Below, one piece after another: positions 2,475 through 46,008 of a stretch of DNA of 64,000 nucleotides (position 1 is the first letter of the stretch; every line of letters begins with the position of its first letter). The notes below the pieces were generated by a model. It saw only the letters and a list, made by a program, of their open reading frames with translations, was not told where the DNA came from and ran no database searches. Both the position numbers and the translations under genes were made by a program. The DNA lies in the NCBI GenBank assembly GCA_029210965.1, contig JARGFZ010000001.1:124001-188000 (forward strand), in the 5' to 3' direction. The stretch is from a bacterium (lineage in GTDB: Bacteria; BMS3Abin14).

Positions 2475-4271
2475 TCACTCAATTTTCAAAATCGCCATAA
2501 AAGCCTCCTGTGGGATCTCCACACGGCCCACGCTCTTCATTCTTTTCTTGCCTTCCTTCTGTTTTTCCAAGAGCTTGCGCTTCCTGCTCACGTCTCCTCC
2601 GTAGCACTTGGCCAGCACGTTCTTTCTCAGGGCCCTCACCGTTTCCCTGGCGACGATACGGCTACCGATGGCCGCCTGGATAATAACCTCGAACATCTGC
2701 CTGGGGATGAGTTCCTTCATTTTCGCAGCAAGGTCACGACCCCTGTAATAGGCCTTTTCCTTTGGTGCTATGACCGAAAGGGCATCAACCGTTTCCCCGT
2801 TGACCTTAATATCCAGTTTTACCAGATCACCGGCCCGATACCCCACGGGGTCGTAATCCAGGGAAGCGTAGCCTCGGCTGGTGGACTTGAGCCTGTCATA
2901 GAAATCGAAGATGATCTCGGCCAGAGGGAGATCGTACTCCAGCATAACCCTTCTGTCCTCGAGATAGGTCAGGCCCTTCTGTACTCCTCGGCGATCCGTA
3001 AGAAGGGAAAGCAGCCCTCCGAGGTACTTGTCGGGGACCAGGATGGTGGCTCGGACGTAAGGTTCGTGGATCTCATCATAATCACCGGAAAAGGACAATT
3101 TTGCTGGGTTGTGAACTTCGATCCATTCGCCGTTCTTTTTAAGAACTTTGTAGACAACTGTGGGCGCTGTGGTGACAAGGTCAAGCTGATGGTGTCTCTC
3201 CAGGCGCTCCTGTACCACTTCCATGTGCAGCATACCCAGAAACCCGCATCGGAACCCGAAACCCAGAGCTTCGGATGTCTCTGGCTCAAAGGAGAGAGCC
3301 GCGTCGTTCAAGACCAGTTTTTCAAGAGCTTCACGAAGTTGGGCGAAATCCTCGCTCGCCGCGGGATAAAGGCCTGTATAGACCATAGGTCGAACAGGTC
3401 TGAACCCGGGCAACGGTTCGGTTGCGGGTGAAGACGCGTTGGTGACAGTATCACCGACCTGAAGTTTTTTCAGGTCCTTGATACCGGGCACCAGATACCC
3501 CACGTCTCCCGCTCCCAGTGATTTTTCCTTCACGGACGCGGGACGAAAAGTACCGATCTCACCAATATCATAACTGCCGCCCTGGATAATGAGCTTTATT
3601 CTGGAACGGGCATAAAGCGTACCCTCGAACACCCTTACAAGGCTGACGACACCTACGTAATTGTCGTACCACGAGTCCACAACAAGTGCGCGCAGAAGGC
3701 CTGTGCGATCACCTATTGGAGCGGGCACTCGCTTAACCACGGCCTCTAGAAGTTCCTTGATACCGATCCCCGCCTTGGCGCTAACCTCCAGCACTTCATC
3801 CGGATCGATCCCCAGTAATGACACCAGCTCTTCCTTGACTCTCCCGGCATCGGCATTGGGTAGATCGATCTTGTTGATAACCGGTATGATGACAAGGTCC
3901 TGCTCCACCGCCAGATAGGCGTTGGCGATAGTCTGGGCTTCTACCCCCTGGACAGCGTCCACTACCAGTAACGCTCCTTCACAGGCCGACAGGGACCGTG
4001 AGACCTCGTAGGAAAAGTCCACGTGGCCAGGGGTGTCAATGAGGTTGAGGGCGTACTCCTGCCCGTCAACCCCCTGGTAATGCAACCTGACAGTCTGGGC
4101 CTTTATCGTGATTCCCCGTTCCCTCTCTATATCCATGGAATCGAGGACCTGTTCGGTCATCTGCCTTTTGGTAAGGGCTCCAGTGGCTTCCAGGAGACGG
4201 TCTGCAAGGGTGGATTTCCCATGGTCGATATGGGCGATGATAGAAAAGTTGCGGATGTTGGCTTGATTCAT
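2475..4271 (-). CDS. lepA: Elongation factor 4 (LepA), ribosomal back-translocase GTPase
   Basis: LepA is a translational GTPase, close to EF-G in its first domains, that acts on stalled or mistranslocated ribosomes. The 598-residue length is standard. The G1 loop AHIDHGKST (residues 13-21), G3 DTPGH (79-83) and G4 NKID (133-136) are intact. The C-terminal region contains the family's [14 protein letters not shown] box and ends with the [16 protein letters not shown] segment typical of LepA rather than EF-G. The ATG at 4271 begins [18 protein letters not shown], matching the family start. It is followed at 190 bases by lepB and preceded by a small membrane protein gene and lptD. Confidence 0.97.
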
Positions 4272-26155: not shown

Positions 26156-26446
26156 TTATACTCCCTCAAAGAATTCAATGGTGCTTCCTTCTTTAAGGGT
26201 GACGATAGCCTTTTTCCAGTCACGGCGTCGGCCAATTTTACGGCCAACCCTCTTGAGCTTACCACGAACATTGAGAACGTTGACCGACTGGACCGAGACC
26301 TGGAAAGCCTCTTCCACAGCCTTCTTGATCTCTATTTTGTTTGCGTCAGGGGCCACTTCGAATACAACCCTGTTATGGTGCTCTTTCAGTGCAGCGTTCT
26401 TTTCAGTCAAAAGAGGCCTGATGATCACTTTGCTGTAGGGTCTCAT
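26156..26446 (-). CDS. rplW: Ribosomal protein L23
   Basis: L23 surrounds the tunnel exit and docks trigger factor and SRP. The 96-residue protein has [20 protein letters not shown] and the closing [20 protein letters not shown], normal for the family. The ATG at 26446 overlaps the rplD stop by four bases (ATGA). Confidence 0.98.
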
Positions 26447-27063
26447 CGGGACATCGCTCCTTCCAGCGTCTCAAGTGCCTTCCGGGTAACAATGAGAGTT
26501 TCGAAAGCCAGCACATCGTAGGTGTTGACCTTGTCAGGTGTAACGATCTTCACCCACTTAAGGTTGCCAGATGCCCTGTCAAGCTCCTCGGAAAGGCTAT
26601 CGACCACTATGACAGCGCTAATAATGTCAAATCGATCCATCGCTGCAACAAGCTCCCTGGTTTTAGGCGCTTCAAGCAAAAAATCATCAACGATCAGGAG
26701 GCTTTCCGAGGCTGCTTTGTGAGCCAGCACGTTCTGCAGAGCTTTTCTGGACATTTTTTTGTTCATTGACTTTGAGTAATCTCGCGGATGAGGACCGAAG
26801 ACTACTCCGCCGCCCCTCATATTGGGAGCACGAATTGTCCCCTGCCGGGCGCGTCCGGTTCCCTTCTGTCGGAAAGGCTTGGCACCACCGCCGCGGACAT
26901 CAGTCCGGCCCTTGGACGAGTGAGTACCTCTTCTGGCACCAGCCCTGGCCGTGACGACAGCTTGATGGATGAGGGAAGAGTTCCCTTGCTCATTCCACCA
27001 TGGAGCAAGGTCTACCTTGCCCACAACTTCATTTTTTATATTGAGAATGTCCATCTGAGGCAT
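26443..27063 (-). CDS. rplD: Ribosomal protein L4
   Basis: L4 lines the peptide tunnel and in E. coli represses its own operon. The 206-residue protein contains the loop region [20 protein letters not shown] that reaches the tunnel and [23 protein letters not shown] at 27063, with AAAGGAC just upstream. It stands only 14 bases after rpsJ: the gene for L3, which nearly always lies between rpsJ and rplD, is not there. The gene itself is intact. Confidence 0.98.
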
Positions 27064-27077
27064 GTCCTTTACCCCCC

Positions 27078-27389
27078 CTACGAGAGTTTGATCTCCACGT
27101 CCACGCCTGCGGAAAGATCCAGCTTCATAAGGGCATCCACTGTCTGGGGAGTGGGTTCAACGATATCCAGCATGCGTTTATGAATGCGGATTTCAAACTG
27201 CTCCCTGGACTTCTTGTCTATGTGCGGTCCCTTTAGGACCGTGTAAATACTCCGCCTGGTGGGCAGAGGGATGGGACCACAGACCCTGGCGCCTGTGCGC
27301 CTGGCGGTCTCTACAATCTCGGTGACCGAAGTATCCAAGATCCTGTAGTCATAGGCCTTGAGCTTAATTCTGATTTTCTGCTGATCCAT
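27078..27389 (-). CDS. rpsJ: Ribosomal protein S10 (NusE)
   Basis: S10 is a small-subunit head protein that, as NusE, also links transcription antitermination and translation. It reads [20 protein letters not shown] and [20 protein letters not shown], the family core, and ends [13 protein letters not shown]. The ATG at 27389 and a GTG one codon earlier (27392) are both possible; GGAGG suits either. It follows tufA by about 60 bases. The next gene on the message is rplD, not rplC. Confidence 0.97.
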
Positions 27390-27448
27390 CACCTTGCCGC
27401 TCCTCCATTATCCGGACGGAATTACTTGTATTTTTCGGTGCCTCGGCT

Positions 27449-28648
<1,200 letters not shown>

Positions 28649-43923: not shown

Positions 43924-44000
43924 TGGCAGGCCAGGAGGGATTCGAACCCCCATCACCCGGTTTTGGAGACCGGTGCTCTAACCGTTAGAGCTACTGGCCT
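43924..44000 (-). tRNA. tRNA-Trp (anticodon CCA)
   Basis: The minus-strand sequence folds with acceptor AGGCCAG/CTGGCCT, a D arm GCTC...GAGC, an anticodon stem CCGGT/ACCGG with loop CTCCAAA (anticodon CCA), and a T arm with TTCGAAT. A 3' CCA is encoded. It lies between rpmG and secE, as in many bacteria. Confidence 0.95.
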
Positions 44001-44024
44001 TCCCCTTTAAGCGACAGAGCAAAT

Positions 44025-44174
44025 CTACTTCGTTTCCTTGTGGGGCCTGTGGCCACCACAGAAACGGCAGAATTTTTTTATCTCCAACCTCTCGGTGGTA
44101 TTCTTCTTGTTTTTGGTCGTTGAATAGTTGCGCTGTTTGCACTCGGTGCATTCAAGCGTAATAATCACACGCAT
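44025..44174 (-). CDS. rpmG: Ribosomal protein L33, zinc-binding type
   Basis: A 49-residue gene between tuf copy 2 and tRNA-Trp. It reads [20 protein letters not shown] and ends [15 protein letters not shown]. Two CxxC pairs (ECTECK and FCRFCG) mark the zinc-bound (C+) form. L33 lies near the E site of the large subunit. The rpmG-(tRNA-Trp)-secE-nusG order is common. Confidence 0.95.
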
Positions 44175-44223
44175 CTCGCACTTTCCCCGCTCCGGGTCTC
44201 AAACGGTCAGATCGGACCCGATT

Positions 44224-45423
<1,200 letters not shown>

Positions 45424-45510
45424 TGTCTCCTCCTTAGAGCTGAATCGGGCGCCTTCGCGCTCCCGAATCCGTTTATCCTGACCCGGGAGGCCCCTGCATT
45501 TCGTCTATTA

Positions 45511-45585
45511 TGGAGCCCACGGCCGGGATTGAACCGGCGGCCTCTTCCTTACCAAGGAAGTGCTCCACCACTGAGCTACGTGGGC
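45511..45585 (-). tRNA. tRNA-Thr (anticodon GGT)
   Basis: Acceptor GCCCACG/CGTGGGC with U discriminator and encoded CCA; anticodon stem CTTCC/GGAAG with loop TTGGTAA, anticodon GGT; T loop TTCAATC. It is the last of the four tRNAs before tuf. Confidence 0.95.
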
Positions 45586-45596
45586 TCGTTGTCAAT

Positions 45597-45673
45597 TGGA
45601 GCGGGAAACGGGATTCGAACCCGCGACCCTCAGCTTGGAAGGCTGACGCTCTAGCCATCTGAGCTATTCCCGC
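45597..45673 (-). tRNA. tRNA-Gly (anticodon TCC)
   Basis: Acceptor GCGGGAA/TTCCCGC with U discriminator and encoded CCA; anticodon stem TCAGC/GCTGA with loop CTTCCAA, anticodon TCC; T loop TTCGAAT. It is 11 bases from tRNA-Thr(GGT). Confidence 0.95.
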
Positions 45674-45807
45674 CCGATCCATCACGTCCCGGCTCCCGGA
45701 TTCAAAACGGATTTAACCCGCCCTTGAACGGTCCTGGAAGGGACACTTTATCAAGAATCTGGTCACTTCTGTATATTAAAGACGGGCATATGACCCGTAA
45801 AATCGCA

Positions 45808-45892
45808 TGGTGGGGAGTGATGGATTTGAACCACCGTAGGCATCGCCAGCGGGTTTACAGCCCGCCCCCTTTAGCCACTCGGGCAACTCCCC
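45808..45892 (-). tRNA. tRNA-Tyr (anticodon GTA)
   Basis: Acceptor GGGGAGT/ACTCCCC, A discriminator, encoded CCA; long variable arm; anticodon stem GCGGG/CCCGC with loop CTGTAAA, anticodon GTA. It lies between tRNA-Thr(TGT) and tRNA-Gly. Confidence 0.95.
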
Positions 45893-45932
45893 GGATACAT
45901 TTTTTCAGTCCTATCCCTGTCTTGACCCACAG

Positions 45933-46008
45933 TGGAGCTGGCGAAGGGACTTGAACCCGCAACCTGCGCATTACAAATGCGCTGCTCTACCAATTGAGCT
46001 ACGCCAGC
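45933..46008 (-). tRNA. tRNA-Thr (anticodon TGT)
   Basis: Acceptor GCTGGCG/CGCCAGC with U discriminator and encoded CCA; anticodon stem GCGCA/TGCGC with loop TTTGTAA, anticodon TGT; T loop TTCAAGT. It is the first gene of the tRNA-tufB operon, about 180 bases after the promoter. Confidence 0.95.

Follow-up and report, generated by a model that had tools for sequence, protein, structure and literature searches.

The S10 gene cluster

The window, i.e. the whole 64-kb stretch of DNA analysed, carries on its minus strand a gene cluster in the order rpsL-rpsG-fusA-tuf-rpsJ-rplD-rplW-rplB-rpsS, otherwise canonical as far as checked (Table 1). Few gene orders are better conserved in bacteria than rpsJ-rplC-rplD. 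Ribosomal protein L3, the product of rplC, helps to start the assembly of the large subunit. Compared with the canonical S10 operon (rpsJ-rplC-rplD-rplW-rplB), all neighbours checked stand in their usual order, whereas rplC does not lie between rpsJ and rplD: it has been excised and is located alone elsewhere, with its own predicted promoter. The rpsJ stop (27078) and the rplD start (27063) are separated by a 14 bp gap, occupied by the ribosome-binding site of rplD. The rpsJ ORF is listed as 27078-27392, with a GTG start; the ATG at 27389 is the likelier one. The preliminary description reported rplC as missing from this junction and from the whole window, and this is confirmed by the junction sequence, the Pfam assignments and a scan of the whole genome for the L3 family (PF00297). 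The window also contains two tuf-sized ORFs of 399 residues, the second being assigned by size and lying near a tRNA cluster.

Table 1. Features of the S10 cluster, of the relocated rplC and of related loci. The first six rows are in window coordinates.
Feature	Position	Strand	Remarks
tuf (EF-Tu)	27449..28648	-	Pfam GTP_EFTU; upstream neighbour of rpsJ
rpsJ (S10)	27078..27389	-	Pfam PF00338 Ribosomal_S10, E=7e-37
rpsJ-rplD junction	27064..27077	-	purine-rich ribosome-binding site of rplD, without rplC
rplD (L4)	26443..27063	-	Pfam PF00573 Ribosomal_L4, E=6.5e-61
rplW (L23)	26156..26446	-	Pfam PF00276; downstream neighbour of rplD
second tuf-sized ORF	44224-45423		tRNA cluster at 43927-46000
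rplC (L3), source genome	G000:C6:69495-70433 (L001:1225-2163)		313 aa
PF00297 match	G000:C6:69771-70043		above cut-off
rplC leader, source genome	G000:C6:69425-69497 (L001:1155-1227)		predicted structured leader
acidic tail of L3	L001:1864-2163		also L082-L089
selC upstream of rplC (examples)	L149:2152-2249, L150:3966-4063, L152:9651-9748		tRNA-Sec
response-regulator receiver genes after rplC	L145:8273-8695, L147:8557-8970, L148:8254-8673, L152:8367-8780
23S rRNA gene	L175:954-4743 (G000:C71)
ORF in the 23S rRNA gene	3202-3726		174 aa

The L3 gene and its new location

The PF00297 search yields a single place in the genome, outside the window and on another contig (C6). There lies one intact, single-copy rplC, so that of the explanations offered earlier, the one by which the gene had moved elsewhere in this genome is upheld. 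Family match and single copy identify the product as bacterial L3 (uL3). It is composed of ~215 residues of normal L3, alignable with other bacterial L3 proteins up to residue ~210, followed by an acidic Glu/Ala/Pro-rich tail. Its matches among named genomes are at most 56% identical, and the L3 of G001, a genome of the same genus, is 94% identical and likewise encoded away from rplD. Such C-terminal tails, of up to ~100 residues, occur in most of the phylum and are short in G003, G005 and G010. A tie between relocation and tail was considered and rejected based on these three short tails; it is also contradicted by G017, in which rplC occupies its normal place and the match nevertheless reaches residue 308.

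The phylum was sampled as one family of 12 genomes, 11 of which yield both L3 and L4. rplC and rplD are apart in all 11. The distance is ~1.7 Mb in G003, a single contig estimated as 100% complete, and 32 and 331 kb in G002 and G004, also single contigs, in which N runs near rplC weaken the evidence for gene order. The rpsJ-rplD junction without rplC, proposed earlier as a point of comparison, is indeed shared by close relatives, with gaps of 7-14 bp where measured.

The new address of rplC is conserved across the phylum, with selC upstream where visible and tatA and an ArsR-type gene downstream. selC was located in nine of the 11 rplC loci, not in those of G002 and G004, and either precedes rplC directly or is separated from it by genes for a MoxR-type ATPase, a DUF58 protein and a vWA-like protein. 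Downstream, the recurring genes are tatA, the ArsR-type regulator, an uncharacterised lipoprotein-like gene and an aminotransferase, then a B12-type methyltransferase. A stand-alone response-regulator receiver gene directly follows rplC in G003, G005, G006 and G010.

Displaced rplC in other lineages

rplC and rplD are adjacent in 42 of the 48 genomes of other families that possess both genes, and apart in six (G039, G042, G044, G051, G054 and G059), where direct reading of the sequence shows tuf/fusA-rpsJ-rplD with no rplC in between. The canonical arrangement holds at 76 of 80 named L3 loci. The four displaced ones come from an uncultured proteobacterium, an Omnitrophota MAG and two deltaproteobacterial MAGs. 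When the phylum of G039 was drawn evenly, adjacency was found in none of the 21 genomes with both genes, G298 being ambiguous as both genes lie near contig starts. Mapped on the S10-L4-L23-L2 tree, the displaced trait requires at least five changes. The displacement of rplC is a recurrent, lineage-wide change. Since it is found in six of 48 genomes and essentially in one whole further phylum, with at least five changes on the tree, the term "rare" used for this rearrangement in the preliminary description was too strong.

These other lineages (G039's phylum, G042, G044, G051, G054, G059; loci L002, L004, L006, L011) resemble the phylum of the source genome in that rplC lies outside rpsJ-rplD and is often preceded by a promoter-like sequence. 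They differ in their neighbourhoods, and have no match to the phylum's rplC leader described below. No common leader or neighbourhood was seen among them, nor, by eye, any single common element in the upstream regions of G039's phylum.

Origin of the relocation

In the L3 tree and in the S10-L4-L23-L2 tree alike, the phylum forms one clade (100/100 in both), with largely similar inner groups. From this agreement, the moved rplC appears to be native and vertically inherited, and the simplest reading of the sequences is that it moved once, before the phylum diversified. By this comparison, rplC left the S10 operon before the radiation of the phylum and settled between selC and tatA, probably by duplication to the new place followed by loss of the original copy.

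Other origins were weighed against this one. The loss of ~650 bp at 27064-27077 through an assembly error, a collapse or a strain-level deletion, also put forward earlier, is conceivable for a 157-contig draft such as the source genome. Yet all 11 L3-bearing genomes of the phylum share the separation, the rplC-less type of junction occurs in the other phylum genomes, the single-contig G003 among them, the source genome has an intact rplC at another place, and the L3 gene of G001 is also off rplD; this explanation is so improbable that it can be set aside. The idea that C6 is a contaminant or mis-binned contig was rejected as well, as G001-G010 exhibit the same separation and L3 tracks the phylum's own tree. 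An rplC acquired from another lineage might instead have landed near selC and taken over from a deleted native gene: integration at tRNA genes, including selC, is known, and the GC content of the rplC core is 0.55 vs 0.50-0.54 in its flanks. However, the phylum's L3 proteins form a single clade whose major inner groups match those of the S10-L4-L23-L2 tree, and no L3 of another lineage is nested within it, the deep branching being too weak to decide against an old transfer; a foreign copy is improbable. Finally, all displaced lineages might stem from one ancient excision, the gene wandering later, as could be suggested by the L3 tree, in which six L3s of displaced genes group together with support (97/92). 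The S10-L4-L23-L2 tree speaks against it, with its five or more changes and a borderline rejection of a single displaced clade (p-AU 0.044), and so does the lack of neighbours or leader seen in common with the other displaced lineages. One shared excision is thus unlikely, if by no means negligible. The move of this essential ribosomal gene is real and ancient, extends over the whole phylum and recurs elsewhere.

A conserved leader upstream of rplC

A TTGACN-N17-TANNNN sequence, predicted to be a sigma70-like promoter, is present upstream of rplC in all 11 phylum genomes, and the DNA further up is not conserved. The leader measures 61-108 nt when counted up to the start codon from a point nine bases ahead of CUAAA. 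Two of its segments, CUAAAMCAU and GGAUAAGAU, are invariant in the 11 genomes. The consensus fold obtained with RNAalifold comprises three helices. In the predicted P1, a 5' pyrimidine tract (YUCUCC) pairs with the Shine-Dalgarno (SD) sequence; the predicted P2 is formed by CUA/UAG and followed by an AAMC/AAGA internal loop; the predicted P3 is a hairpin of variable length (AUYCR...). In this fold, five pairs are changed on both sides. On a stem alignment with loops hand-trimmed for length, two-sided changes were counted in four P3 pairs (e.g., GC to AU in G007 and G008), and one P2 pair goes from UA to UG. Pairing amounts to 92.6% in register vs 32-41% when slid. The covariation score was reached by 18 of 500 shuffles and, with 11 related sequences, covariation is modest and mainly confined to the outer part of the P3 hairpin. 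Changes in the SD helix P1 are mostly C/U exchanges against the constrained SD, and this helix is weak in G009 and missing from the minimum free energy folds of G001 and G006. Folding z-scores range from -0.8 to -2.8 in the seven leaders tested.

A covariance model was built from ten leaders, G008 being left out. It yields one match per phylum genome (11/11), always before rplC, and recovers the left-out G008 leader with E=3.4e-9; none of 279 genomes outside the phylum was matched. The strict leader pattern occurs at most once per genome, and Rfam provides no match for the leader. The element thus shares with r-leaders a consistent position upstream of a ribosomal protein gene and a conserved structure with covariation, of modest strength in these 11 sequences.

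In G000, G001, G002 and G006, the GATAGG of the leader core has a second potential partner, a CCTATC located just before the start codon, and G004 displays a matching change (GATGG/CCATC). This alternative pairing is possibly the other state of a switch.

A candidate L3 autoregulatory RNA

In E. coli, the S10 leader mediates autogenous control by L4 of the whole S10 operon, which normally covers rplC. The element proposed here would resemble it in that autogenous control reaches rplC, and differs in being a short leader before rplC only, with L3 instead of L4 as the proposed ligand. At its new place, rplC would be transcribed from its own sigma70-type promoter, the transcript starting at or near the pyrimidine tract YUCUCC. 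Pairing of this tract with the SD, a prediction with partial compensatory support, would close the leader around CUA/UAG, the AAMC/AAGA loop and P3. Free L3 may then bind the invariant core, stabilise the SD-sequestering form and repress its own translation, so that control by the leader would replace the operon-level control lost with the exit from the S10 operon.

L3 is favoured as ligand because rplC is the sole gene always found behind the leader; in such cases, Eckert and Weinberg (2020, PMC7247131) take the sole regulated ribosomal protein as the ligand. PMC9687910 and PMC10931766 present L3 as a primary binder that joins early in assembly, and primary or early binders most often supply r-leader ligands according to PMC7247131.

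Mimicry of the protein's rRNA site, frequent among r-leaders although not a requirement, was sought as well, with no convincing case. The leader GGAUAAG matches H97 of the 23S rRNA and AGAUAG/CUAA matches the base of H101, both in domain VI; matches this short may be due to chance and constitute only a lead. The 23S rRNA gene of the source genome exceeds the bacterial model by ~865 bases and contains an ORF resembling, by eye, a LAGLIDADG homing endonuclease. The extra segment is probably an intron; at gathering threshold, no intron family of Rfam matches it.

The relocation being real, the leader might nonetheless be a constitutive SD hairpin, an element that affects mRNA stability or the site of another regulator. 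Translation can be tuned by an SD hairpin on its own, and part of the core overlaps the alternative hairpin near the start codon seen in four genomes and, in altered form, in G004. Against this, the invariant letters of the internal loop, on both strands, exceed the needs of a simple SD hairpin, and the leader is tied only to rplC, once per genome. Such a non-L3 function is a serious possibility, held at rather low probability. We propose that the leader is a new candidate regulatory RNA acting as an L3 autoregulatory element before the moved rplC. The joint explanation, namely a relocation before the radiation, an own promoter and an SD-pairing leader serving as L3 switch, is considered probable.

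Relation to known leaders and significance

The r-leaders surveyed by Eckert and Weinberg (PMC7247131) are likewise conserved, structured 5' UTRs of ribosomal protein genes with predicted SD sequestration, and the present element differs from them in that rplC is alone downstream. L3 is not among the ligands in Table 1 of that 2020 survey, where rplC figures only under an archaeal L4 leader, and in the review PMC10931766 uL3 comes up a single time, with no word of autogenous control. The chances seem evenly balanced that the element represents the first L3-binding autoregulatory leader RNA, arisen in one phylum because rplC, after its escape from the S10 operon, needed its own feedback. The claim to be first is provisional, resting on Table 1 of PMC7247131.

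The lineages with a displaced rplC are natural experiments on how a moved ribosomal protein gene regains balanced expression. The displaced junction is a possible lineage marker, and methods that need contiguity of the S10 cluster would miss L3 in whole phyla. The rplC-specific leader, if true, would add L3 to the ligands of r-leaders and provide a short L3-RNA system.
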